Assembly (NCBI RefSeq): GCF_003173335.1
Contig: NZ_QGMZ01000001.1
Location: forward strand, 62,001 to 126,000
Origin: Methanospirillum stamsii
GTDB lineage: Archaea > Halobacteriota > Methanomicrobia > Methanomicrobiales > Methanospirillaceae
Reading direction: 5' to 3'
Length of the DNA stretch: 64,000 bases
Shown here: positions 15,464-37,855 of the stretch, piece after piece
Layout: each line of letters begins with the position of its first letter
How positions within the stretch are numbered: the stretch's first letter is position 1
Program-made: the position numbers and the translations under genes
The notes under the pieces: model-generated
The model's input: the letters and a program-made list of their open reading frames with translations, nothing else
Database searches by the model: none
What the model was told of the DNA's origin: nothing

Positions 15464-17262
15464 AAACATATGCTGGAACAGCGGACAAAACCGAATCAGA
15501 ATCCGGTTCCATGATAAAGACACTAAAGCGAATGCTCTCATATCTCACCTATTACCGGTATCGACTTATCTATGCCCTCATTCTGATGCTTGGTTTTTCC
15601 ATCGCCATGGGTCTTCTTCCGACATTAATGGGAACTGCAACCGATATTATCACCCAAAAACAGTCCATTGCTGACCTTCAGAAGGTTTTCCTGTTATTTA
15701 TCCTTGATGCCGTAGCACTATTGATTTGTGGTCATTTTTCACAAAAACTCCTCTCCGACATATCCCAGGATGCCCTCTATAACCTGCGAAATGATCTGTT
15801 TACCCATTTACAGATATTATCCCTGGGATTTTTTGATCGTCAGCCAATCGGAGAATTGATGAGCCGGATATCCAATGATACTGATGTTATTGATCAGTTC
15901 TTCTCAAACGGTATCCAGCAGGTCCTCCAATCCCTAACCACGATAACCGTTCTGACGGTTGTAATGCTTATCATAAACCCGTTCCTGGCCTTACTTGTAT
16001 ATCTGGCGGTTTTTTGTATTATCTGGATCTCTACAACCATCGCCAGGGTTTCCGGCCCGGCATTTGAACACATGCAGGAACAACTCGGTGAAATGAATGG
16101 CTATGCAGAAGAGCACCTGGCCGGACAGAAGGTGGCTATTGCGTATAGGCAGGAACAGTCATCTGTCAGCGCTTTTTCAGTTCTTTCTGCACATGTTGCG
16201 AGGACCGGAGGCAGGGCTGAATTTGTTGCACTTACCTCCATGCCTGCTGCAACCATCATGGCAAACCTCCAGATGATCATTCTTTTGATAGTAGGTGGAG
16301 CCATGATCATTCATGGAAATATCACTCTTGGTGAACTAGTTGCATTTCTTGGATTGTCATCAAGTATATCTTCGCCTCTCTCCCAGATCTTCTCATCATA
16401 TGCAGTCATCATGAATGCATCCGCCGGAGCAGTGCGGGTATTTAAAATCCTTGATGAAAAACCCGTGGTTGCAGATAAACCTGAAGCAGGACCAATGCCA
16501 TCAATCACGGGAGATGTCAGATTTGATAACGTTGATTTTGCATATGTTCCTGGCCGGACCATTCTCCGAAACAACACATTCAATGCTCTTCCCGGACAAA
16601 TTTTCGGCCTATGCGGACCTACCGGAGCAGGAAAAAGTACCATTATTAATATCCTGACCCGGTATTACGATATCATGTCCGGATCCATAACGGTTGATGG
16701 AACCAGTATAGATTCGGTGAAACAGGACAGTCTTCGGTCCCAGATTGCCCAGGTCCTTCAGGAACCGTTCCTATTCTCAGGGACAATCATGGAAAACCTC
16801 CGATATGCCCGGGAGGGTGCAACGGACGATGAATGTATTTCTGCTGCAACAAAAGCCGGGGCATACGAGTTCATCATGGCTCAACCTGAATGTTTTGATA
16901 CATTTCTCAGTGATGGCGGTGCTAATCTTTCTCAGGGTCAACGGCAGATGCTGACCATTGCAAGGGCCATGGTAGCCCATCCACGACTTCTCATTCTTGA
17001 TGAAGCAACCAGTAATGTGGATACCAGAACCGAAAAGATAATCCAGAATGGACTATTGCACCTGCAGGAGGGAAAAACGTCATTCATCATTGCTCACCGT
17101 CTTTCAACAATCCGGCATGCAGACTGTATCCTTGTTATTAACCAGGGAGAAATTATCGAACAGGGAACCCATGATGAACTCATGAAAAAAGAAGGGTTTT
17201 ATTATAACCTTTTCATGAGTCAGTTCAGAGGGAAACTGAGTATTATTACCGGTATCTCATAA
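15460..17262 (+). CDS. ABC exporter half-transporter with catalytic ATP site
   Basis: The 600-residue protein is the partner of the preceding gene, overlapping it by ATGA. Six TM segments precede an ATPase domain with Walker A GPTGAGKST (near 385), Walker B LILDEATS (near 510) and H-loop IAHRLST (near 543), all canonical. Its own signature is altered to LSQGQRQ (near 490). In the heterodimer this signature faces the degenerate Walker site of the partner, so both defects fall in one composite site. An internal Met at residue 18 or 25 could be the true start, since about 20 polar residues precede the conserved region. Confidence 0.85.
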   Translation: MKTYAGTADKTESESGSMIKTLKRMLSYLTYYRYRLIYALILMLGFSIAMGLLPTLMGTATDIITQKQSIADLQKVFLLFILDAVALLICGHFSQKLLSDISQDALYNLRNDLFTHLQILSLGFFDRQPIGELMSRISNDTDVIDQFFSNGIQQVLQSLTTITVLTVVMLIINPFLALLVYLAVFCIIWISTTIARVSGPAFEHMQEQLGEMNGYAEEHLAGQKVAIAYRQEQSSVSAFSVLSAHVARTGGRAEFVALTSMPAATIMANLQMIILLIVGGAMIIHGNITLGELVAFLGLSSSISSPLSQIFSSYAVIMNASAGAVRVFKILDEKPVVADKPEAGPMPSITGDVRFDNVDFAYVPGRTILRNNTFNALPGQIFGLCGPTGAGKSTIINILTRYYDIMSGSITVDGTSIDSVKQDSLRSQIAQVLQEPFLFSGTIMENLRYAREGATDDECISAATKAGAYEFIMAQPECFDTFLSDGGANLSQGQRQMLTIARAMVAHPRLLILDEATSNVDTRTEKIIQNGLLHLQEGKTSFIIAHRLSTIRHADCILVINQGEIIEQGTHDELMKKEGFYYNLFMSQFRGKLSIITGIS

Positions 17263-17530
17263 TTTCCCAGCATATCTTTTTATCATCGCCTTCATACGAT
17301 TAAGGGAATCAAAAACCGTTAAAGGTTATTTGAACCCTAATAATTCAAAAATAGATACTTTCTTGAGATTCATTCTATTTCTACTAAATAAATAGAACCC
17401 AACATTGCCACTAACAAAAAATTAATGTGTTCTTCGTGACGTATGAATCGAGCAAAATAAAAAATAATAGCACGATTGTGGATGATCTCGTTGAGAGTCT
17501 ATTGTCAAAGTGGCAAACGGAGGATCTAAC

Positions 17531-18142
17531 ATGGATTCATATCGAAAAAAACATATCGTATACAGAGCGAGAAGAATAATGAATCGTTACCTATCATCTG
17601 GATTCATATGTTTATTCATCCTGGTTTTACTGGCAGGAGTCTGTACAGCTGATGAATCTCCCCGGTACGTAATATACGTTCAGGGCGGTGAAAGTTCCAT
17701 CATTCATGGATCAGAAGGGATAACGGATATTATTGTGAAGGATATCATTCCATATGCCCATTTTTCAGATGGAAAGAAAAGTCTTTTGATTCCTGATAAA
17801 CTATTACGGTATATCACCTGTCCGGTAAATGCAGCGGTTGTCTTTTCCGGTGCTGGCGGTGAATCAGTATCTCTTATAGGGATATCTAATCTGTCGTTGT
17901 CTTATGAAAACAAGGATCTTACACTTCGCGTAAATCCGCTCGGTTTTTACGAAGGAGAGGCTCTGAAATCTTTTGCTAGTGAAAAGAATGAACTTGATGC
18001 TATCAATGTCGAAAAGTTTGAAACCACTGGTTTTTATCTTGAAATAATCGAGACAGGACCTGAAAATAATAACTGTCTGGCTCAGGAAATTGCATGTCTG
18101 AACGCCGATGATATGAAAGCTTGTTTAGGAGAATGTGGTTAA
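17531..18142 (+). CDS. Secreted protein of unknown function
   Basis: ATG 17531 has GGAGGATC eight bases before it, so it is preferred over the in-frame GTG at 17510. The 203-residue product has a TM or signal segment (LSSGFICLFILVLLAGVCTA). A beta-rich mature domain follows (YVIYVQGGESSIIHGSEGI), and the C-terminus has four Cys (NNCLAQEIACLNADDMKACL). The regular Cys spacing suggests disulfides or a cluster outside the membrane. No family is recognised and it stands alone. Confidence 0.6.
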   Translation: MDSYRKKHIVYRARRIMNRYLSSGFICLFILVLLAGVCTADESPRYVIYVQGGESSIIHGSEGITDIIVKDIIPYAHFSDGKKSLLIPDKLLRYITCPVNAAVVFSGAGGESVSLIGISNLSLSYENKDLTLRVNPLGFYEGEALKSFASEKNELDAINVEKFETTGFYLEIIETGPENNNCLAQEIACLNADDMKACLGECG

Positions 18143-24672: not shown

Positions 24673-25647
24673 TTAATCACTATATATTTTTTCTTTCTCT
24701 ATCGCCTCATTTATCCGGACATCTATCAGGGAACTTACATTTTCGAACCGAATATTTGGCACCAGAGATGTACCCTCATCAACCAGTGATAGAGCCTCTG
24801 ATCCCGGAGAGAATTTCCCGGATACACATTCTTCTATCTCATTGTATACTACGGTGTCAAGACTTTTTACTGCAGAGGCAATCACCGTATCAGATGCAAG
24901 TCCGGACTGGTCGGCATCGGTTGCAATGATGAAAAGACCGGAGAGATTTTGTGCCGTGCTGATTATTCCAAGTCCGGAACCTCCGGAAACAGCATATATC
25001 ACATCGGTATTATTCCGATACATTTCACGGGTAATTTCTCCGGCCTTTTCCGGCATGGAAAATCCGGAATAATCATCAGCAATATAGGATATTGTAACAT
25101 TCACATCAGGATCTTCAGCCCTGACTCCATCCTGAAATCCTTCGGTAAAACTCTGAATGACCGGAGCATTCACACCAGCAATCACTCCGACATTTCCGGT
25201 TGTTGTCTGATTTGCAGCGAGAACTCCGGCAAGATAACTAGCCCCGTACATAGAAAAGGATATAGATTTAACTGACGAATCTAAAATCTCCGGCCCGTCT
25301 ATCATTACAACAGGAACATCAGGGTTTATTTGTGAGATTTCCTGTTCATACCCGTTCATGATGTCCCCCATAACAAGAACCATTGAGGATCTGTTTCCGG
25401 CCCTATCGATAACCGGATCTTCCGGGGCTGAAGAATTCCAAAGAATCTCTCTGACGGTGAGATTAAAACCATCCCTCGCTTTTTCAAGACCTGAAAACGC
25501 CTTCGAGAGATAACTGTAATCACCTTTATCTCCGACATAGACCATGGAGACAATTGTTGGGTCTGACCCGGATACCGGGAAAATGATAAATATAGATAGG
25601 AAAAGGCACATGAGGAAAACAGAAAAAGAGTAATACCGTACTGTCAT
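24673..25647 (-). CDS. BMP-family (PnrA-like) periplasmic binding protein, orphan
   Basis: The protein (324 residues) has a signal peptide (YSFSVFLMCLFLSIFIIFPV) and the two-lobed BMP/Med fold: VSMVYVGDKGDYSYLSKAFS, SFSMYGASYLAGVLAANQTT, GNVGVIAGVNAPVIQSFTEG, and VIYAVSGGSGLGIISTA. Relatives bind nucleosides for ABC import. No permease or ATPase is nearby, so it may deliver to a transporter elsewhere or act as a sensor. It is convergent with the giant kinase gene. The signal peptide has no clear lipobox cysteine. Confidence 0.8.
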   Translation of the reverse strand: MTVRYYSFSVFLMCLFLSIFIIFPVSGSDPTIVSMVYVGDKGDYSYLSKAFSGLEKARDGFNLTVREILWNSSAPEDPVIDRAGNRSSMVLVMGDIMNGYEQEISQINPDVPVVMIDGPEILDSSVKSISFSMYGASYLAGVLAANQTTTGNVGVIAGVNAPVIQSFTEGFQDGVRAEDPDVNVTISYIADDYSGFSMPEKAGEITREMYRNNTDVIYAVSGGSGLGIISTAQNLSGLFIIATDADQSGLASDTVIASAVKSLDTVVYNEIEECVSGKFSPGSEALSLVDEGTSLVPNIRFENVSSLIDVRINEAIEKEKIYSD

Positions 25648-25863: not shown

Positions 25864-26871
25864 ATGACAATACAATGTGAATACTGTCCAAGAGGATGCA
25901 GTATTTCAGAAAATAAAACCGGATATTGTCAGATGTATACCGTTCAGAACGGAGTAATCATTGAGCGGTTTCCTTATTCATGGTCAGGGCTAAACCAGAG
26001 TCATATTGAACAATTCCCATTTTTTCATGTCTATCCGGGAAGCCGGTCACTCATGATTGGAACGGCAGGATGCACCATGGATTGTAAATATTGCTCCAAT
26101 GCATACATCGCCAAATGTCCGGTTGAAGAAGTTCCATTAATGAACCTCTTTCCGGAAAAGGTTGTGACCATCGCAAAAAAGTCAGGCTGTCAAAGTATTG
26201 TTTTTGCAATAAATGAACCTACAGTAAGTCTTCCCTCCTTTCTCGAACTTGCAGCTACCGCAAAAAAAGAGGGAATTCTGGTAGGATGCCTTACAAATGG
26301 GTACCTGACTAATACTTCATTGCAAAAATTATGTGAAGCATGTGATTTTCTGAATATCAGCCTAAAAGCTTTAACAGACCAGGAATATGCTGATTTAACA
26401 GGCGTTACATCAATATCACCAATTTGTAATTCAATTACATATGCATCCTCTGTCTGCCATCTGGAAATTACAACCCCGGTATTAGAGCCGATCTCATCAG
26501 AAAAACTCGGGAAAATCTGCCGTTTCATCGCACAAATTAATCCGGAAATACCATGGCATGTATTGCGTCTCCTTCCGGAGTATATGCTTAAAGATGCTCC
26601 ACCGCCAGACATTCAAAAAATTGAACAAATTTTGCATGATCTTAGAAAAATGCTCCCCTACACCTATTTTGGAAATTATGTAGGGGCTCAGGGTCTCTCT
26701 ACGATATGTCCGGTATGTGGAAATATTGTCATAGAACGGATAAACACCGGAACCTGTGGTGGAAGACTTATCGGGTATAATTTATCGAATGGAAAATGTC
26801 CTCATTGTAATACCAAAATCCCCATAACCGGAAATTATGTAGATTGGGAACATTTGGAGAATGGTTCATGA
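25864..26871 (+). CDS. Radical SAM enzyme, AmmeMemoRadiSam/PflA-like
   Basis: This 335-residue enzyme has an N-terminal cysteine set (CEYCPRGCSISENKTGYCQM), the radical SAM motif GCTMDCKYC near residue 70, and INEPTVSLPS. A C-terminal zinc ribbon follows (CPVCGN with GTCGGR and CPHCN). The layout is that of COG1180-type proteins. The Memo and AMMECR1 partners are absent. Its stop overlaps the next gene's start (ATGA), and a BtuCD-type importer follows, so the reaction probably serves that uptake or modification pathway. The substrate is unknown. Confidence 0.75.
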   Translation: MTIQCEYCPRGCSISENKTGYCQMYTVQNGVIIERFPYSWSGLNQSHIEQFPFFHVYPGSRSLMIGTAGCTMDCKYCSNAYIAKCPVEEVPLMNLFPEKVVTIAKKSGCQSIVFAINEPTVSLPSFLELAATAKKEGILVGCLTNGYLTNTSLQKLCEACDFLNISLKALTDQEYADLTGVTSISPICNSITYASSVCHLEITTPVLEPISSEKLGKICRFIAQINPEIPWHVLRLLPEYMLKDAPPPDIQKIEQILHDLRKMLPYTYFGNYVGAQGLSTICPVCGNIVIERINTGTCGGRLIGYNLSNGKCPHCNTKIPITGNYVDWEHLENGS

Positions 26872-28013
26872 GAGCAGGAATTATCAATGCAGGAGGGTGG
26901 CAGACTCATGTAGATATGAAATCCGGCAGGCAAATATCATTATCCGGGTATCTGCCTTCACTTCTCAGCCCTATTTTGGAATCTCACCGGTATCCGGGAG
27001 ACAGGGATTCTGGTGCCATCCCTTGGGTAACCGATGTTGCTCAAGAGATCGTGAATGCCTATGAACCAGAATTCCTCATGCTCGATTATGCTACCCCTTA
27101 TTTTCTCCGGTTTAATGAAGGTATGGAGGGAAATGAATGGAATGAAATGATTTCCGGACTTCTGGATCATGTGTCTGGTTTTTGCGAAATAAATGGATAT
27201 AACCCGGTAATTGTAGGTACCGGAGCGATGATAAAGCACCAGGGAATTATTGATCTGACGGGATTATCCGGACTAGCAGACGCAGGAGGACCAGTTCATC
27301 ACCTGGCAACGATCATGGAACCCTCTGGTAAGGACCTGAATTATCTCCATGCTCATCCACATGTTTCCGGAGTATACTCAAGAGAAGAAATTTTGGAAAC
27401 ATTCCAAATGTCCTTGGAAAATAAAAAAGACATCCCTGACCTTCTCGTAATTGCAAAACCGGGATATACGTTCAGAGCTCTTGGATCCTGCATCAGGCCA
27501 TATCATTTTCTACCCGGACAGAATGAAAAAATTCCGATATCTGGACTTGATTCTTCTGTGCATGATATCACGGATATTTCCGGAGGGGTATTACGATCAC
27601 TTGAATCAGAAAAAACTGCTCTTATCATAATCGAAGGATTAGGTACCGATGATCTTCCCTGCAGAATGGTATCTAACTCCGATCATTGGTACCGGTACAC
27701 CATGTCCTGTGAGCAATACCTGGCAATAACGACGGGTAAACATATAAGTAGCCAGCCCTGGCCTCCGGGATACAGGGGATTCATTCACGACGGAATGAAA
27801 AAAGCCTATCCATTCTCCGGCATAATAGATCAAATTCCTCATGGAACCATCGGAGAAATTTGGCCAGGAAAAAGTGCAGCTGTTGGAACCAGAAGTGTAT
27901 TTACTCATGTCAGTTCCGGAGCGGATATAACAATTGAATGTAAGGTATGTAATCAATATAACCACGGTACCATGGCAATCTTCTCTGAAAAAGGAATATC
28001 CCAACAGGAATAA
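26868..28013 (+). CDS. Unrecognised protein coupled to the radical SAM gene
   Basis: The 381-residue product starts MRAGIINAGGWQTHVDMKSG. It has no TM segment. Blocks that look conserved include DVAQEIVNAYEPEFLMLDYA, NPVIVGTGAMIKHQG, DAGGPVHHLATIMEPSGKD, LLVIAKPGYTFRALGSCIRP and KTALIIIEGLGTDDLPC. Several His, Asp and Cys residues in these blocks could bind metal. It lies between a radical SAM enzyme (4-bp overlap) and a BtuC-type permease (2-bp gap), so it belongs to that operon. I do not recognise the family; a resemblance of IIIEGLGTDD to alkaline-phosphatase-fold enzymes is too weak to use. Confidence 0.7.
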   Translation: MRAGIINAGGWQTHVDMKSGRQISLSGYLPSLLSPILESHRYPGDRDSGAIPWVTDVAQEIVNAYEPEFLMLDYATPYFLRFNEGMEGNEWNEMISGLLDHVSGFCEINGYNPVIVGTGAMIKHQGIIDLTGLSGLADAGGPVHHLATIMEPSGKDLNYLHAHPHVSGVYSREEILETFQMSLENKKDIPDLLVIAKPGYTFRALGSCIRPYHFLPGQNEKIPISGLDSSVHDITDISGGVLRSLESEKTALIIIEGLGTDDLPCRMVSNSDHWYRYTMSCEQYLAITTGKHISSQPWPPGYRGFIHDGMKKAYPFSGIIDQIPHGTIGEIWPGKSAAVGTRSVFTHVSSGADITIECKVCNQYNHGTMAIFSEKGISQQE

Positions 28014-28015
28014 CC

Positions 28016-29080
28016 ATGAAAAAATTGCCACATACAAACGAAGAAACATTCACAAATCATATTGAACATATAAAAAAATCTCAAAAAAAACAATTATTAA
28101 TCCTCTGTCTGATTCCTGCGGCTCTTTTTTTTGTTTCCCTCTCACTTGGAAGATATGACATATCACCCTGTACTGCTGCAATGATAATGATATCGCAGAT
28201 CTGTTCTCTTCCGGTCACATGGACCGATGTGCAGGAGACTGTTCTGCTTCAGATCCGATTGCCAAGAGTGATAGCAGTTATGCTTGTCGGAGCAGGACTT
28301 GCTGCATCTGGATCAGCCTTTCAGGGATTATTTCGTAACCCTCTGGTCTCATCAGATATTCTGGGAGTTGCAGCGGGAGCCGGTTTTGGTGCAGCACTCG
28401 GTATATTGATCTCCGGAGATCCGATAATTATCCAATTACTGGCATTTGTATGGGGTGTTATTGCAGTTGGTATTGCATATGGACTGAGCAGAGTGTACAA
28501 GGGAGGATCATCCCTGATTCTGGTACTGGCAGGAATAATTGTCGGATCGTTTTTTTCAGCCATGATATCACTCGTGAAATATGTGGCAGATCCCTATCAG
28601 AAACTACCTGCTATTGTTTTCTGGCTGATGGGCAGTATGTCATCAACTAACTGGAAGGATGTGTATGCCGTTTCAATTCCTATCATCAGTGGATTGATAA
28701 TTCTGATTCTCCTTCGGTGGCGGATAACAATTCTTGCATCCGGAGAAGAGGAAGCTCATTCACTTGGCATAAATACCACCAGAATGGCCCAGATTATTAT
28801 CATCATCTGTACAGTAATTACTGCATCTGGAGTATGTATCAGCGGAATAATCGGATGGGTAGGATTGGTTATTCCCCATCTTGGCAGAATGATAGTCGGA
28901 CCGGATTACCGACATCTCCTACCAGTATCAGTAATCCTTGGAGCTTCATACCTGGTTGTAATTGATGATTTAGCCAGAACACTCACCACTCAGGAGATAC
29001 CACTTGGAATTCTTACATCAGTCATCGGAGTTCCTTTTTTTGCATACTTGCTAAGCCGAAAAAAAGTAGGGTGGGCCTGA
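28016..29080 (+). CDS. FecCD/BtuC-family importer permease
   Basis: The protein has 354 residues and about ten TM segments. Diagnostic segments are LLQIRLPRVIAVMLVGAGLA, SGSAFQGLFRNPLVSSDILG, SLGINTTRMAQ and GIIGWVGLVIPHLGRMIVG. These match type II importers for iron-siderophore, heme or cobalamin. The start at 28016 follows the previous stop by two bases, and the TGA overlaps the ATPase ATG. A hydrophilic N-terminus of about 25 residues is unusual. The substrate cannot be read from this subunit. Confidence 0.9.
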   Translation: MKKLPHTNEETFTNHIEHIKKSQKKQLLILCLIPAALFFVSLSLGRYDISPCTAAMIMISQICSLPVTWTDVQETVLLQIRLPRVIAVMLVGAGLAASGSAFQGLFRNPLVSSDILGVAAGAGFGAALGILISGDPIIIQLLAFVWGVIAVGIAYGLSRVYKGGSSLILVLAGIIVGSFFSAMISLVKYVADPYQKLPAIVFWLMGSMSSTNWKDVYAVSIPIISGLIILILLRWRITILASGEEEAHSLGINTTRMAQIIIIICTVITASGVCISGIIGWVGLVIPHLGRMIVGPDYRHLLPVSVILGASYLVVIDDLARTLTTQEIPLGILTSVIGVPFFAYLLSRKKVGWA

Positions 29081-29871
29081 TGATTGAGGTAAATCATCTC
29101 TCTTTCGCATATGAAAAAGATAAACCAGTATTTTCAGATATTTCCTTTCATCTTCAACCAGGGAAGATATTTACGATTCTTGGACCGAATGGAACTGGAA
29201 AATCCACCCTGATAAAATGTCTGGTGGGACTTCTTTCACCTGAATCCGGAGATATTCACCTTTCAGGTGAAAAAAAGGAATCAATATCACATCGTAAACA
29301 GGCACGAATAATGGCCTATGTTCCCCAGGCTCATCAGATAATTTTTCCATTTCCAGTCCTGGATTATGTACTGATGGGAAGATCACCTCATTTACCGGTC
29401 TTTGGACAGCCTGGATCAAAAGACTACCTGAAGGCAATGCAGGCATTAAAAAAGGTTGGTGTAGATTATCTGGCAGACCGGCCAATATCAGAAATTTCCG
29501 GAGGAGAATTCCAACTGGTTTCCATCGCACGGGCTCTTACTCAGAGTCCATCCTTGTTGATTCTTGATGAACCTACCTCTCATCTTGATTTTGGAAACCA
29601 GTTTAAAGTTTTATCAATTATTGAGGAATTAGCCGGAGAAGGATTGTCAGTTGTTATGAGTTCTCATTTTCCGGACCATGCATTTCTGATATCCCACCTT
29701 GTAGCAGTTATGCAGGAGACCAGGTTTATTGGTATTGGAACTGCAGACGAAGTAATTACAAAGGAATTGATGGAACAAGCGTATGGTATTGATGTAGTAA
29801 TCAGCACCGTTTCAGAATGCGGGCGCACTGTCTGTCTTCCGGTCAGGAAAAACAATCAGGTAATGAATTGA
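29080..29871 (+). CDS. FecE/BtuD-family importer ATPase
   Basis: The 263-residue ATPase begins MIEVNHLSFAYEKDKPVFSD. It carries Walker A GPNGTGKST, Q-loop VPQAHQ, signature ISGGEFQL and Walker B LLILDEPTSHLD, then an SSHFPDH switch His. ATG 29080 overlaps the permease TGA; a GTG nine bases earlier is also possible. It pairs with the upstream permease. Confidence 0.9.
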   Translation: MIEVNHLSFAYEKDKPVFSDISFHLQPGKIFTILGPNGTGKSTLIKCLVGLLSPESGDIHLSGEKKESISHRKQARIMAYVPQAHQIIFPFPVLDYVLMGRSPHLPVFGQPGSKDYLKAMQALKKVGVDYLADRPISEISGGEFQLVSIARALTQSPSLLILDEPTSHLDFGNQFKVLSIIEELAGEGLSVVMSSHFPDHAFLISHLVAVMQETRFIGIGTADEVITKELMEQAYGIDVVISTVSECGRTVCLPVRKNNQVMN

Positions 29872-29940
29872 CCTGTTATACCAATTGGAATCGTCATTCA
29901 ATTCAATATTTAAATATGTGTAAAATGTGATGATGCTATA

Positions 29941-29965
29941 CCAGCAGATTATACTTTACTGCTGG
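29941..29965 (+). other. Intercistronic stem-loop before the first binding-protein gene
   Basis: CCAGCAG (29941-29947) pairs perfectly with CTGCTGG (29959-29965), leaving an 11-nt A/T loop. It sits 13 bp before the binding-protein start and after the ATPase gene. Such a hairpin could protect the 3' mRNA or block 3' exonucleases, raising binding-protein levels relative to the permease. No T-run follows, so a terminator is less likely. Confidence 0.5.
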
Positions 29966-29978
29966 ATATTTCGAGGGA

Positions 29979-31031
29979 ATGAATATGAAAATGAAAGTTG
30001 GTTTGTGTGTCATATTATGCTTTATTCTTCTCAGTTTTCCGGTTTCTTCTTCTGATAATCCGGAAAAATTTGTTGTTGATATGAGTGGGAACGAGGTCAA
30101 AATTCCTGAATCGGTCTCATCTGTTGTATGTCTGGATCCCTTTGCCACCCAGATGGTTCTTACAATTAATGGCGGAGAACTCTTATCTTCGATATTTTTA
30201 GGCCCTGCGGATAAAAAAATCCTGCATGAAGTAAATGCAAAAGTTGCCGAACTGAAAAGTGTTGGAGGCCCTTCTGGGACAAATCTTGAATCACTCACCG
30301 CAATAAAACCAGACCTGGTAATCTCCCAGGTTGGGAGTGATGAGATGAATCAGAATATCCGTGATCTTGGTTATTCAGTTATTGAGATAGATTCAGAATC
30401 ACCGGACAAACTGATTGAGGGCATCAGACTTATCGGAGATGCGATTGGAAAAGAAGAGCAGGCCGATGATTTCATTTCATGGTATTCTGAAAAGATGGAG
30501 TACATACAAAACCAGACAGCAGATATTCCAAAAGAAGAACTTAAGACGGTCTATATTGGGGGGCTTGAACCTCTCTCAACGGTTGGAGCAGATTATTATC
30601 AGCACTATTTAATTGAAAATGCTGGTGGAAAAAATATTGCCGGAGAATTTTCAGGAGGCTGGAATGATGTATCATTAGAACAGTTATATACCTGGAATCC
30701 GGATGTAATTCTTTTTGCTCCGTATTCAAAAATTTCTGTTGACGATCTCCAGGCTGATCCGTCATGGCAGAAACTGAGTGCAGTAAAAGAAGGAAAGGTG
30801 TACCGGATGCCCAAATATATCTCATCATGGGATGTTCCAGCACCCGAATCAGTTCTCGGAATGATGTGGCTTTCTGAAAAAATTTATCCGGAGAAAGTAA
30901 ATTTTGAAATTGAAGATGAAATGCGATCTTTTTATAAGAAATACTATGGGTACGATATTGCAGATGCAACAATCGCATCCATACTTGAAAAACAGGATCT
31001 GTTGGATGTAAATCCAACCATCATCAATTAA
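29979..31031 (+). CDS. BtuF/FepB-family substrate-binding protein 1
   Basis: The 350-residue protein has a signal peptide (VGLCVILCFILLSFPVSSS) without a lipobox. Two Rossmann-like lobes are joined by a long helix. Typical blocks are SSVVCLDPFATQMVL, SLTAIKPDLVISQVGSDEM, LSTVGADYYQHYLIENAGGK and WNPDVILFAPYS. The second ATG at 29985 has GAGGG at better spacing. It completes the importer: permease, ATPase, then this gene. Its last bases overlap those of the convergent second binding protein. The class binds metal chelates or corrinoids. Confidence 0.85.
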   Translation: MNMKMKVGLCVILCFILLSFPVSSSDNPEKFVVDMSGNEVKIPESVSSVVCLDPFATQMVLTINGGELLSSIFLGPADKKILHEVNAKVAELKSVGGPSGTNLESLTAIKPDLVISQVGSDEMNQNIRDLGYSVIEIDSESPDKLIEGIRLIGDAIGKEEQADDFISWYSEKMEYIQNQTADIPKEELKTVYIGGLEPLSTVGADYYQHYLIENAGGKNIAGEFSGGWNDVSLEQLYTWNPDVILFAPYSKISVDDLQADPSWQKLSAVKEGKVYRMPKYISSWDVPAPESVLGMMWLSEKIYPEKVNFEIEDEMRSFYKKYYGYDIADATIASILEKQDLLDVNPTIIN

Positions 31032-32127
31032 TTTTTTCTCCTAGTCCTGGAATTTCTTCAAAAAAATTTTGCATTTTGGACTGATCGGTAATAATTTGTT
31101 TGATATCTGCATTTGTTAAATCTAATCCATAAAATGTGGAATAAAAATCTTTAAACTCCTCATTCAAATCATATTGAACATTATCCGGATAGAGAATGGT
31201 TGCCATCCACATAATTCCCAGTATCGACTCAGGTCCAGGCATATCATATGCCATAATATATTCAGGTAACCGGTAAATCTGATTATTTTTTACTGCATCA
31301 ACCTTTTGCCAGGCAGGATCCTGTGCAATTTCTTCAGGGTTTGCACTGGTATAAGGCATCATGATTATTACATCCGGATCCCAGGAATAGACTTCTTCTA
31401 GTGATATACTATTCCATCCTCCGGTAAGGTAGCCAGCAACATTGATACCTCCGGCTGCGGTAACCATGTAATGCTGATAATAATCAGAACCCGCGGTATC
31501 AAGAGGGCTGCTGCCCATAAGATATATTTTCTTTTTATCGTTCTCGGGGATTTTTTCTGTTTTCTCCCGGATTTGATTCAAGGTTTTTTCAAAATAAGAG
31601 ATATACTCATTGGCTTTATCTTCCTTATCCAATGCTTCTCCTAATAAAGAGACACTTTTTAACAGTTCTTCAGGATTTTCCGGATAAATTTCCACTACAT
31701 CTAAACCGATATCCCGCATTGATTGAGTACTTTCATCGTACCCGACTTTTGATATGACAAGATCCGGGTTCTCCTTTAACAGTTCTTCAAGATTAACACT
31801 ATTTGGATCACCAGGCCAGGGCAATTTTGAAAAAACCGGATTTATTTTTTTCAGAAGTGTCCGGTTCGCCCATCCGGTACAGGCACCGGTGAGTTTATCC
31901 TCCTCATCAATAATAATTAAAAACTGATAACCAACCGGTTCAATAGTCGCAATTCTTTCGATGGAATCCGGAAGAAAAACCTCAGTGCCGCCCAGATCTG
32001 TTACCGTCTTATCAGCGAAGCAACAGGAAACTCCCATCACTATACTCAACAGAAGTAAAAATGAAATCAATGATTTGATAGAGAAGGGGTACACAAATAC
32101 CCTTCCTTGAGAATTCATATGATCCAA
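31024..32127 (-). CDS. BtuF/FepB-family substrate-binding protein 2
   Basis: This 367-residue paralogue of the preceding protein shares DYYQHY, GG-[KI]-N-[IV]-AG, GGWN and PGPESILGIMW blocks. Its signal peptide ends VMGVSCCFADK, which could be a lipoprotein site, unlike the first. It is on the opposite strand, and the two stops overlap by 8 bp (31024-31031). It thus uses a separate promoter, shared as a divergent region with the DUF4430 gene. It may bind a related ligand for the same importer. An internal Met at residue 4 is an alternative start. Confidence 0.85.
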   Translation of the reverse strand: MDHMNSQGRVFVYPFSIKSLISFLLLLSIVMGVSCCFADKTVTDLGGTEVFLPDSIERIATIEPVGYQFLIIIDEEDKLTGACTGWANRTLLKKINPVFSKLPWPGDPNSVNLEELLKENPDLVISKVGYDESTQSMRDIGLDVVEIYPENPEELLKSVSLLGEALDKEDKANEYISYFEKTLNQIREKTEKIPENDKKKIYLMGSSPLDTAGSDYYQHYMVTAAGGINVAGYLTGGWNSISLEEVYSWDPDVIIMMPYTSANPEEIAQDPAWQKVDAVKNNQIYRLPEYIMAYDMPGPESILGIMWMATILYPDNVQYDLNEEFKDFYSTFYGLDLTNADIKQIITDQSKMQNFFEEIPGLGEKIN

Positions 32128-32271
32128 TATGCACTCTGAATTTATCTATGATATGAAAAAGGTTCTGCGAATTATCTGATATACCAGATGATATATCAAT
32201 CTAATGAATCTTTGTGACTTTTACAATGAAATAGATATTTTTAGATTTAAGAAAGGATAACAATACCATGT

Positions 32272-33228
32272 ATGTACGAAGTGTTTTGGAGTGTGACCAC
32301 GAAATTACTTTTCCTTGTCACATTAGGTGTATTTCTTATCTCACCGGTTATTGCAGATGAGAATGAAGAATGGACAATTGATCTTATAGGAGTGATTAAT
32401 AAGACATTATCCAAATCAGATTTCGAAGAACTGGCTGCTACATCATCAGCGTCATTCACCGATGAAGCAGGAGACATTTTTTCAGGAGTTCCATTGATCA
32501 CTCTGATTGGTCTTGTTGATGATGGAGAAGGAGATGCATCATTTAACAGTGACGCTGCAAAAACAGGATATACCGTGGAAATTATTGGGGGAGACGGATA
32601 TTCTGCAGAAATTGAAAGTGCAAACATCTCTGAAGAAGCAGAAATAATTGTATGCAATCTCCAGAACAACGAATCCTTTGCCTCAAGTGATGTACCTCCA
32701 TATCCCCTTAAAGTGTATGGCGCTGATATCACCATGGGACAAAGCGTTGGAAATATTGCGGTTATCGAATTAAAAGGCATATCAGTTTCTGAACCTGAAC
32801 TGAATGATGAAGAAGATGTTTCAGAAGATAACAGCACAATGTTTGCAGGAGAGATCGAATTATCTGATGGAACCATTGCAATAATTACGGGATCCGGAAA
32901 AACCTATGATGTAAATGAAAAAACTCCTCTTGGAGCCCTTGCTAAAGCAGCCCAGGATGGAGGATATACCTTTGAGGTTGCAGATCATTCCTATGAAGAC
33001 CGGGAAATTCTTCTCTTAGATGCCATCAACGATAACCGATGGGAAAAGGATACATCTGACCTTGTTGTTGCAATTAATGGAGAAATCGTAGAAGATTGGG
33101 GAACAGATACTGAAAAGTTTTACAACATGTTACCACTTATGAGCGGAGATGTCGTTACATATCTTGTCGGAGTTCCCCCGGTCACTTTAGAGAACGGAAT
33201 TAAAATTGTAGAATTAACAGTGTTGTAA
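32272..33228 (+). CDS. Secreted molybdopterin-like domain plus DUF4430 protein
   Basis: The 318-residue protein has a signal peptide (LLFLVTLGVFLISPVIA). The N-terminal part (SKSDFEELAATSSASFTDEA, FSGVPLITLIGLV, VYGADITMGQSVGNI) resembles the molybdopterin-binding fold of sulfite-oxidase relatives without obvious cofactor residues. The C-terminal part (VVAINGEIVEDWGTDTEKFY, PLMSGDVVTYLVGV) resembles DUF4430, a transcobalamin-like domain. DUF4430 next to BtuCDF genes hints at corrinoid handling. It is divergent from binding protein 2. Function inferred only from context. Confidence 0.6.
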   Translation: MYEVFWSVTTKLLFLVTLGVFLISPVIADENEEWTIDLIGVINKTLSKSDFEELAATSSASFTDEAGDIFSGVPLITLIGLVDDGEGDASFNSDAAKTGYTVEIIGGDGYSAEIESANISEEAEIIVCNLQNNESFASSDVPPYPLKVYGADITMGQSVGNIAVIELKGISVSEPELNDEEDVSEDNSTMFAGEIELSDGTIAIITGSGKTYDVNEKTPLGALAKAAQDGGYTFEVADHSYEDREILLLDAINDNRWEKDTSDLVVAINGEIVEDWGTDTEKFYNMLPLMSGDVVTYLVGVPPVTLENGIKIVELTVL

Positions 33229-34830: not shown

Positions 34831-36039
34831 GTGGAGACTGATGATACATCAGAAGAAATTATCGAAGTAAGAAACCTTACAAAGATATTCGGTCCAAGAC
34901 CCCAGAAAATGTTGACTCACTTGCAGAAAGGATGTACAACAAAAGAGATCCGGGAAAGAACAGGTCATGTCGTAGCATTAAAAAATATCTCATTTTCTGT
35001 AAAAAAGGGCGAGATATTTGTATTAATGGGGCTTTCCGGTTGTGGAAAATCCACACTACTCAGATGCCTGAACCGGCTAATCAGCCCTACAGCCGGATCA
35101 ATTCTTCTTGATGGTGAAGATATCGCTTCAGTATCAACCGAGCGGATGAGAACCATCAGGAGATCCCGGATGGGAATGGTTTTCCAGAGTTTTGCACTTC
35201 TCCCTCATAAAAATATCCAGGATAATGTTGCTTTTGGCCTTGAGATCCAGGGAATTTCAGCAGAAGAGAGGGCCGGTATTGCAAAAGAGACATTAGACCT
35301 TGTCGGACTTTCAGGATATGAGAATTCGTACCCGGACCAGTTATCAGGCGGAATGAAACAACGGGTGGGTCTTGCACGAGCTATTGCAAGTTCACCGGAT
35401 ATCCTTCTAATGGATGAGGCTTTCTCAGCACTCGATCCCATGATCAGAAGAGATATGCAGAATGAACTTCTTGACATTCAGGATCGTCTTGAAAAAACCA
35501 TTATCTTTGTCTCCCATGATCTTGACGAAGCACTAAAACTGGGAACACGAATCGGTCTTATGAAGGCTGGAGAAATTGTTCAGATAGGAACGCCTGAAGA
35601 AATTTTAACTCAGCCGAAAAATGAATTTGTTGAACGATTTGTTGAGGACGTGGATTTATCACGTGTCCTTACGGCGAAAGATGTCATGAAAGTTCCGGAT
35701 CCCATGATCCATGCATCATCAGGACCACATGTTGCCTTAAGAATGATGAAGGAAGCCGGAATTTCAACGATTTTCGTAGTTGCAAAAAATCGTGAACTAA
35801 AAGGTATCATAACTGCAGATGATGCATTACGTGCAGGAAAAGAAGGACTGACACTTCAGGACATTATCATTCCGGATGTTGTAACACTTTCTCTTGACAC
35901 ACCGGTGGCAGATATCATTCCGGTTATTGCTGACAGTAAATTCCCAATTGCCGTAATTAATGAAGAAAAACGACTGAAAGGGGTTATTGTAAGAGGATCA
36001 GTTCTTGCAGCTCTTGGCCGGACAGGAGCATCGCTATGA
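34831..36039 (+). CDS. opuAA: Glycine betaine ABC importer ATPase with CBS pair
   Basis: The 402-residue protein starts at a GTG. The N-terminal ATPase has Walker A GLSGCGKST, signature LSGGMKQRVG and Walker B ILLMDEAFSALD. The OpuAA-type insertion before Walker A is present (QKMLTHLQKGCTTKEIRERT). A tandem CBS domain follows from about 280 (DVMKVPDPMIHASSGPHVAL, GIITADDALRAGKEGL, LKGVIVRGSVLAAL). CBS pairs in this family sense ionic strength and gate transport. It overlaps the permease gene by ATGA. The complex takes up compatible solutes under osmotic stress. Confidence 0.9.
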   Translation: METDDTSEEIIEVRNLTKIFGPRPQKMLTHLQKGCTTKEIRERTGHVVALKNISFSVKKGEIFVLMGLSGCGKSTLLRCLNRLISPTAGSILLDGEDIASVSTERMRTIRRSRMGMVFQSFALLPHKNIQDNVAFGLEIQGISAEERAGIAKETLDLVGLSGYENSYPDQLSGGMKQRVGLARAIASSPDILLMDEAFSALDPMIRRDMQNELLDIQDRLEKTIIFVSHDLDEALKLGTRIGLMKAGEIVQIGTPEEILTQPKNEFVERFVEDVDLSRVLTAKDVMKVPDPMIHASSGPHVALRMMKEAGISTIFVVAKNRELKGIITADDALRAGKEGLTLQDIIIPDVVTLSLDTPVADIIPVIADSKFPIAVINEEKRLKGVIVRGSVLAALGRTGASL

Positions 36040-36926
36040 CACCTTCGCCTTTCCCACGTCTTCCAATTGGTTCGTTTATCGAAGAACTGGTAGAATGGAT
36101 TAGTGATAATCTGGGCTGGCTGCTTGATGCCATTACTGATATTCTCAGTGCAATGGTAAGCACATTATATGGACTTCTTAGTGCGATTCCACCAACTGTG
36201 CTCATCATTCTCATTTCAATTATTGCATTTGCCCTTAAATTCAAGGCAATTTCAAAGAAAAAACATATTAAAAAGAGAATCCTGGGATCTCTGGACCTTC
36301 CCATTCTCTGTATTGCCGGCCTTTTATTAATCTGGGACCTGGATTTATGGGACCATTCAATGGAGACACTGTCACTTGTTATTGTGTCAACTGTGGTGGC
36401 CCTTATCATTGGAATACCCTTAGGAATTATTGCTTCACATTCAAACAGATTTAACCAGATTATAAGGGTTTTTCTGGATTTGATGCAGACAATGCCTTCA
36501 TTTGTCTATCTTATCCCCGCGGTTATCTTCTTTGGGCTTGGAAATGTTCCGGGAATTATCGCCACCGTGGTGTTTGCGATGCCTCCTGCAATCAGGCTCA
36601 CGAACCTTGGCATCAGGCAGATCCCGGTAGAACTTATTGAAGTATCAGATGCTTTCGGAGCTACACCAATCCAGAAACTTGTAAAAGTTGAACTTCCGGT
36701 TGCCCTTCCCACCATTATGGCCGGGGTAAACCAGTGTATTATGTTAGCGTTATCCATGACGGTTATTGCTTCCATGATTGGAGCAGGAGGTCTTGGATAC
36801 CAGGTGCTTTATGGAATACAGCGTGTGGACATTGGTTCCGGATTTGAGGCAGGCCTTGCCATTGTAATTATTGCAATAATTCTTGACCGGCTGAGTCAGA
36901 ATCTCGTGCCGGTCAGAGAGAGATGA
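36036..36926 (+). CDS. opuAB: Glycine betaine ABC importer permease
   Basis: The 296-residue protein has an amphipathic N-terminus, then about seven TM segments. Typical blocks are VIVSTVVALIIGIPLGIIAS, LDLMQTMPSFVYLIPAVIFF, GNVPGIIATVVFAMPPAIRL and the EAA loop VSDAFGATPIQKLVKVELPV. These match ProW/OpuAB. It overlaps the ATPase gene by four bases and the next gene starts within 40 bp, so all three are one operon. Confidence 0.9.
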   Translation: MTPSPFPRLPIGSFIEELVEWISDNLGWLLDAITDILSAMVSTLYGLLSAIPPTVLIILISIIAFALKFKAISKKKHIKKRILGSLDLPILCIAGLLLIWDLDLWDHSMETLSLVIVSTVVALIIGIPLGIIASHSNRFNQIIRVFLDLMQTMPSFVYLIPAVIFFGLGNVPGIIATVVFAMPPAIRLTNLGIRQIPVELIEVSDAFGATPIQKLVKVELPVALPTIMAGVNQCIMLALSMTVIASMIGAGGLGYQVLYGIQRVDIGSGFEAGLAIVIIAIILDRLSQNLVPVRER

Positions 36927-36964
36927 ATGAATTTAGGAAAAAATTATATTATAGGAGGAAAAAC

Positions 36965-37855
36965 ATGAAATTTACAAACCAGGCAATTTTGTTATTAACA
37001 GGAATATTCCTTGCCGGATTTATCTTTTTGGCAGGATGTACCGGGAGTGAACAATCAGCATCAATGCAGAAAGGAAAAATCATTGGGATTGAACCAGGTG
37101 CCGGCATCATGCAGAACACCGAAGATGCCATCACCGATTATGATCTTGATTACACCCTTGTCTCAAGCAGCAGTGCCGGAATGGCATCCGAACTGACAAA
37201 GGCAATCAAAGACAACAAATGGATAGTCGTTACCGGATGGACACCGCATTGGAAGTTTGCACGATTTAATCTCAAGTATTTAGACGATCCAAAAGGTATC
37301 TACGGCGGTGAGGAATACATCGGGGCTCTTGCAAGAAAAGGATTTGAAGCTGATAATCCGGGTGCATACGAGATATTGTTTAGATTTAAATGGACTCCGG
37401 ATGAAATGGAATCAGTAATGCTTGCTATCGAAGATGGAAAAACCGATGAAGAAGCAGCAAATGAATATATTACTACTCACCCTGACCAGGTATCCAATTG
37501 GATAGGTAATGTTACCGGAGACGGTTCACTCGTGAAGATCGGATATGTCCTGTGGGATTCAGAAATCGCAAGTACCAATGTCCTCAAAAAAGTTTATGAA
37601 CAGGCAGGATACAAAACAGAACTCATCGCAGTTGATGCCGGACCACTTTACCAGGCAGTTTCAACCGGAGATATAGACTGCACTATATCAGCATGGCTTC
37701 CCAAAACCCAGGCAAATTACATGGATAAATATGGTGATGACCTGGTTGAAGTAGGTAAAACTCTTGAAGGAGCAAAGATAGGGCTTGTTGTTCCTGATTA
37801 TGTGACCATCAGTTCCATTGATGAACTGAATAGTGTAAAGGATAAATTCCAGTAA
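36965..37855 (+). CDS. opuAC: Glycine betaine-binding lipoprotein, OpuAC domain order
   Basis: ATG 36965 has ATAGGAGG nine bases upstream and gives a lipoprotein signal (GIFLAGFIFLAGCTGSE). An in-frame ATG at 36923 would put 14 hydrophilic residues in front and is disfavoured. The lobe with GIEPGAGIMQNTEDAI and VVTGWTPHWKFARFNLKYLD comes first, and the lobe with IGYVLWDSEIASTNVL and TISAWLPKTQANYM second. This is the B. subtilis OpuAC order, swapped relative to E. coli ProX. Tryptophans of the ligand cage are kept (TGW, VLW, SAW). Confidence 0.9.
   Translation: MKFTNQAILLLTGIFLAGFIFLAGCTGSEQSASMQKGKIIGIEPGAGIMQNTEDAITDYDLDYTLVSSSSAGMASELTKAIKDNKWIVVTGWTPHWKFARFNLKYLDDPKGIYGGEEYIGALARKGFEADNPGAYEILFRFKWTPDEMESVMLAIEDGKTDEEAANEYITTHPDQVSNWIGNVTGDGSLVKIGYVLWDSEIASTNVLKKVYEQAGYKTELIAVDAGPLYQAVSTGDIDCTISAWLPKTQANYMDKYGDDLVEVGKTLEGAKIGLVVPDYVTISSIDELNSVKDKFQ

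Follow-up and report, generated by a model that had tools for sequence, protein, structure and literature searches.

A radical SAM enzyme and a protein of unassigned family in a probable molybdenum/tungsten acquisition operon of Methanospirillum stamsii

The uptake of molybdenum and tungsten (Mo/W) is usually described as import of molybdate or tungstate by ModABC, TupABC or WtpABC. As far as we know, MolBC-A, one of the known systems closest to the locus reported here, does not include a radical S-adenosyl-L-methionine (SAM) enzyme, a methyltransferase or the protein called X below. What the two have in common is a BtuCD-like permease, an ATPase, a binding protein and a link to Mo/W, MolBC-A being a type II molybdate/tungstate importer (PMC4031551). 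The Moco riboswitch (RF01055) is already known (PMC2408646), and the genome context of DUF364 proteins has been described in terms of tungstate/molybdate and other metal transport and of pterin-like chelators (PMC2954201). The locus lies in a stretch of 64,000 nucleotides (the window; G000:C1:62001-126000, from an assembly of 3.74 Mb) of Methanospirillum stamsii, where the gene of a radical SAM enzyme and that of X, a protein of 381 residues, lead into the genes of a type II importer of the ATP-binding cassette (ABC) class. We read it, with a probability of roughly 55%, as a Mo/W acquisition operon in which the importer would bring in a Mo/W compound and the radical SAM enzyme and X would process it.

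Since the operon of the bacterial relatives usually carries a Moco riboswitch, the locus probably serves the import and processing of Mo/W rather than of vitamin B12. For the bacterial orthologues the link to Mo/W is strong. The features of the locus are as follows.

25864-26871, plus strand: radical SAM enzyme of 335 residues, COG1180/AmmeMemoSam-like but of a separate clade (Pfam PF04055, 1.6e-14)
26868-28013, plus strand: protein X, 381 residues, partner of the radical SAM enzyme, with a predicted circularly permuted fold of the alkaline phosphatase (AlkP) superfamily that lacks the metal ligands
28016-29080, plus strand: FecCD-family permease, type II and BtuC-like (Pfam FecCD, 1.7e-83)
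29071-29871, plus strand: ABC ATPase of the importer (Pfam ABC_tran, 6.2e-31)
29941-29965, no strand: perfect inverted repeat CCAGCAG-N11-CTGCTGG just 5' of the gene of binding protein 1, read from the sequence
29979-31031, plus strand: substrate-binding protein 1 (Pfam Peripla_BP_2, 7.6e-30)
31024-32127, minus strand: substrate-binding protein 2, convergent with binding protein 1 (Pfam Peripla_BP_2, 1.2e-34)
32272-33228, plus strand: probably secreted protein without assigned family, its N-terminus judged by eye to resemble a signal sequence

All the parts of a type II importer are thus present (FecCD permease, ATPase and Peripla_BP_2 receptor). A preliminary description of this stretch had reported that the genes of the radical SAM enzyme and X overlap, and indeed the end of the former and the start codon of the latter (ATG at 26868) share ATGA, an overlap of 4 bp. 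It had also placed permease, ATPase and binding protein behind them without gaps. This is true up to the ATPase, with 2 bp between X and the permease and an overlap of 10 bp between permease and ATPase, whereas between the ATPase and binding protein 1 there is a gap of 107 bp. The second binding protein that it mentioned was recovered on the opposite strand, whereas its DUF4430 label for the 32272-33228 product was not confirmed by Pfam, a search at E<=10 giving no match above the cut-off.

The searches gave twenty X proteins, which come from a small number of archaea in this class and from Bacillota. Across the archaeal class, of which 232 genomes were searched, X occurred in the genome of the window and in four genomes of one other genus, whose cassette consists of a two-domain binding protein, the radical SAM enzyme, X, a UbiE-like methyltransferase, FecCD and the ATPase; the methyltransferase is absent from the archaeal cassette L006 (loci are designated by L and a number). 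Binding proteins 1 and 2 of the window correspond to the single two-domain protein beside the cassette in archaeal relatives such as L006. A pattern scan over 85,000 species genomes added one relative, in a metagenome-assembled genome (MAG) of Lutispora. A search of the class to which this MAG belongs (391 genomes) gave one further X protein, and at the level of the phylum (398 genomes) another thirteen came to light, while none was found in plasmids and viral contigs. Every X locus holds a radical SAM enzyme of one clade, and X adjoins it everywhere except at L122, where the cluster holds both genes but on opposite strands; at L124 a second copy of X lies two genes away. FecCD, binding protein and ATPase stand beside the pair wherever the contig extends, L121 excepted. 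Co-occurrence of the two genes across genomes, which had been proposed as a check, was therefore confirmed, and because the pair is conserved across archaea and Bacillota its arrangement is not due to chance.

The regulation of the bacterial orthologues is linked to Mo/W by the Moco riboswitch, detected with Rfam in 12 of the 15 bacterial X loci. At ten of these (L119, L121, L122, L123, L124, L126, L127, L128, L130 and L131) it is upstream of the operon to which the importer genes, the radical SAM gene or both belong, the X gene of L122 being divergent from the operon so preceded. It is lacking at L125, and also at L120 and L129, both of which are truncated by the end of their contig. No cobalamin riboswitch was present in the 15 loci. 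The same genomes supplied 25 further bacterial FecCD loci as controls, and five of these had the Moco riboswitch (L151, L154, L164 barely, L167 and L170), of which L167 itself contains a radical SAM enzyme fused to a Peripla_BP_2 domain, a type described below; five controls had a cobalamin riboswitch (L141, L142, L145, L147 and L152). For the Moco riboswitch the Fisher test gave p = 3e-4, or 1.3e-3 with two near relatives dropped, values that are only a guide because the loci are not fully independent.

The neighbouring genes point in the same direction. At L130 the order ModA-ModB-ModC-FecCD-ATPase-binding protein-radical SAM-X is maintained on a single strand behind one Moco riboswitch. Pfam identified MobB in L039, XdhC_C and DUF364 in L122, and a molybdopterin oxidoreductase and DUF364 in L131, and among the archaeal cassettes ModA/ModB are near L006 and L007 and ModB is near L009. 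In a strict search, with Mo proteins of E. coli as references and with FmdE and DUF364 left out of the count, Mo genes were nearby at 6 of 18 X loci, 8 of 21 loci of the fused radical SAM type and 4 of 40 controls; against the controls p was 0.016 for the fused type and 0.008 for both sets together.

Other genes were also seen behind Moco riboswitches. In L127 (16709-17764), near the X operon, a class I SAM methyltransferase gene (16922-17764) lies right behind its own riboswitch. In the Lutispora-like loci L039 (10225-14992) and L050 (3015-7945) a Moco riboswitch 3' of X precedes the gene of a surface protein of 1500 residues, which in L039 has Pfam SLH and molybdopterin-oxidoreductase-like stretches. 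The divergent FecCD locus L154 (2404-10681) has two Moco riboswitches, two P-loop NTPase-like proteins and a UbiE-like methyltransferase.

The enzyme encoded at 25864-26871 belongs to the Radical SAM superfamily, having the PF04055 domain and the cluster motif CX3CX2C at residues 70-77 (C70-x3-C74-x2-C77), which is kept in the relatives. It is a distant relative of the radical SAM component of AmmeMemoRadiSam (TIGR04337, together with Memo and AMMECR1), with a score of 172.9 bits that is under the curated cut-off of 220. Memo and AMMECR1 had been described as missing, which is correct for the locus only: the same genome carries both, on contigs C78 and C31, as well as a separate radical SAM protein of the canonical type on C7. 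With its score below the cut-off and the canonical set elsewhere, a role as AmmeMemoSam partner was rejected. In the radical SAM tree a branch supported by 99/99 parts the enzymes that have X as partner from a second type, fused to a Peripla_BP_2 domain.

The fused type (L046:762-2555, L047:7091-8839, L080-L099) was seen at dozens of loci of the archaeal class; as a rule a gene for a UbiE-like methyltransferase adjoins it directly, and FecCD, DUF364, FmdE, MoeA or ModABC are often present as well. At least one Bacillota locus of this type (L167) is behind a Moco riboswitch. Its Peripla_BP_2 domain is apparently a substrate-binding domain located in the cytoplasm. The genome of the window has paralogous loci in which the fusion is accompanied by DUF364, FmdE, MoeA and ModBC. 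DUF364 is a neighbour at L122 and L131 and at the paralogous loci L047 and L167 but not at the window locus, and the DUF364/DUF4213 'heavy-metal chelation' loci with ABC importers share the metal-transport context (PMC2954201).

Protein X had not been recognised in the preliminary description, and neither Pfam nor NCBIfam has a match to it. By sequence the best hit in the PDB did not have an E-value below 0.08, and a relationship with the BP_2 domain fused to the paralogous radical SAM enzymes was not supported (hhalign E 0.38). A structure search, too, had been proposed beforehand. From the family of 20 sequences (A5) AlphaFold2 gave a model with pLDDT 90.7 and pTM 0.92; an earlier model from five sequences (pLDDT 44) was discarded. 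Over model residues 1-292, the part used in the fold comparison, the best solved structure by VIA-align was phosphonoacetate hydrolase 1ei6 (Z 10.1, root-mean-square deviation 3.5, 215 residues aligned), followed by NPP/ENPP enzymes and then PafA-type phosphatases, while the top match of Foldseek was ENPP6 (5ege; E 1.2e-3, probability 1.00, TM 0.31). Residues 1-246 align to residues 136-407 of the 1ei6 chain, so that X starts in the middle of an AlkP domain and does not follow its canonical N-to-C order. With hhalign, residues 1-247 resembled the C-terminal part of iPGM (E 5e-7) and residues 248-381 its N-terminal part (E 4e-4), both being E-values of single comparisons, whereas the crossed pairings gave 0.59 and 0.36. 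Because the structure match and this independent comparison of the halves agree, the model of X is most simply read as a circularly permuted domain of the AlkP superfamily (phosphonoacetate hydrolase, NPP, iPGM), with which it shares the predicted fold and a weak but consistent profile similarity.

X differs from that superfamily also in its active site. In the alignment the metal motifs NPDxxGH and ADHG and the nucleophile are absent, YATPY and VGTGA standing instead, and the sole residue that remains at an AlkP catalytic position is the E/D at 256. The conserved residues are D45, D156, N270, Y284, R342, H347, E357, C358 and G367, of which the Asp, Asn, Tyr, Arg, Glu and Gly367 are invariant and the His and Cys nearly so. 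Phosphatase activity therefore appears unlikely, and with the catalytic metal ligands lost the old pocket probably serves for binding.

The proposal that the locus combines uptake with chemistry on a corrinoid or a metal chelate can be retained in part: the pair is genuine and tied to an importer, and a metal compound is the probable substrate, but the metal link is to Mo/W. Uptake and remodelling of a corrinoid or other tetrapyrrole was rejected and is very improbable. It draws on the similarity of the permease to BtuC, which at 236 bits to NCBIfam NF007081 is far under the cut-off of 461 (and at 192 bits to NF003001 under that of 334). In the FecCD tree all the X-locus permeases, the one of the window included, form a group (99/94) that excludes E. 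coli BtuC and FepDG, although the long E. coli branches are unsurely placed, and every permease with a cobalamin riboswitch. Such a riboswitch at orthologous loci is a common mark of BtuCDF importers, not a strictly defining one, and it was present at none of the 15 bacterial X loci, 12 of which have a Moco riboswitch. The contrast in cobalamin riboswitches between X and control loci is by itself not significant (p = 0.14), which is one of several observations that weigh against our Mo/W reading. At the X loci Mo genes are only moderately enriched (p = 0.055), and at L039 and L050 the riboswitch comes only after X and is directed towards the gene that follows. In the window itself, where a test for a cobalamin- or metal-responsive element had been proposed, Rfam gave no match for the locus even at E<=1, and neither a riboswitch nor a Mo gene is present across 19.5-38 kb. 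For want of both, the link to Mo/W in M. stamsii itself would follow from the orthology of the radical SAM enzyme, X and the permease. In genome G087 the X gene (L009:8783-9184) has decayed, having lost a large internal segment and acquired a frameshift, yet the radical SAM enzyme, methyltransferase and importer are intact, so that X can be dispensable. Moreover, residues 293-381 of X are hardly covered by the fold comparison and the TM-scores of Foldseek are low (0.3).

The pair at L121 stands away from any FecCD, the single case of what the preliminary description had named as a refutation, a pair without transporter. Since even there a Moco riboswitch immediately precedes it, the pair seems to be tied to Mo/W without being strictly part of a transporter, and it may work in cofactor metabolism and not on an imported ligand. 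The radical SAM enzyme, X and the methyltransferase might then serve to build a metallophore, or to produce or alter a pterin or Mo/W cofactor, and share the operon only through the Mo/W regulon. The L127 methyltransferase behind its own riboswitch would agree with this, as would the proposal that DUF364 acts on pterin or flavin derivatives (PMC2954201). However, at nearly every locus the pair is kept inside the importer operon and no other obvious chelator-making genes were seen, and we consider this explanation unlikely. Less likely again is that the importer moves plain molybdate or tungstate, as MolBC-A does, and that X is a phosphatase-derived cytoplasmic carrier or sensor of the oxyanion, modified by the radical SAM enzyme. 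AlkP folds bind tetrahedral oxyanions, and X has lost the metal ligands yet keeps its invariant and near-invariant polar residues. This remains a live rival because MolBC-A, a known type II importer, carries molybdate (PMC4031551). Against it, ModABC beside several X operons already provides molybdate. Furthermore, we know of no precedent for the modification of such a carrier by a radical SAM enzyme.

Under the Mo/W acquisition reading, a type II (BtuCD-like) importer with Peripla_BP_2 receptors would bring in the Mo/W compound, more likely as an organic or thio-chelate than as the bare oxyanion, because type II importers usually carry chelates. In the cytoplasm the radical SAM enzyme and X would act as a two-protein module, joined in some relatives by the class I SAM methyltransferase, and might turn what is imported into a form from which the metal can go into the assembly of the pterin cofactor; X would use its old AlkP pocket for binding instead of phosphatase chemistry. 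The general form of this proposal, that anaerobes import a Mo/W chelate through a BtuCD-type importer and that a radical enzyme with a permuted, metal-free AlkP-fold partner releases or converts the metal, is put forward tentatively. A further variant, in which the radical SAM enzyme acts on X and X carries a radical or a modified residue near the C-terminal Gly367 or near Cys358, seems highly improbable. If the proposal is true, the Mo/W compounds used by anaerobes, some methanogens among them, include ones that enzymes must first process; a phenotype under Mo/W limitation is to be expected, the unnamed X family gains a testable function, and the tendency to label BtuC-like permeases as corrinoid transporters is corrected. 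In a literature search of open-licence papers none named the pair, and the acquisition chemistry proposed here was found described nowhere; the DUF364 paper (PMC2954201) never uses 'radical SAM', and the text of the Moco riboswitch paper (PMC2408646) lacks the word 'radical'.

Some minor features of the window should be mentioned. The inverted repeat at 29941-29965 is a possible operator or hairpin and is the sole copy across the window and the loci scanned. A scan for sigma-70-type promoters around the locus gave no excess over shuffles, such a promoter model being unsuited to archaea. The place of the 32272-33228 product in the importer system is uncertain; a molybdopterin-oxidoreductase-like domain considered for it was dropped since the match was not found. 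The divergent gene 5' of the operon (24673-25647) encodes a Bmp/PnrA-like substrate-binding protein without adjoining transporter genes, and beside the locus at 34831-37855 there is an ordinary-looking ABC importer of the glycine-betaine type (ATPase with CBS domains, permease and binding protein).

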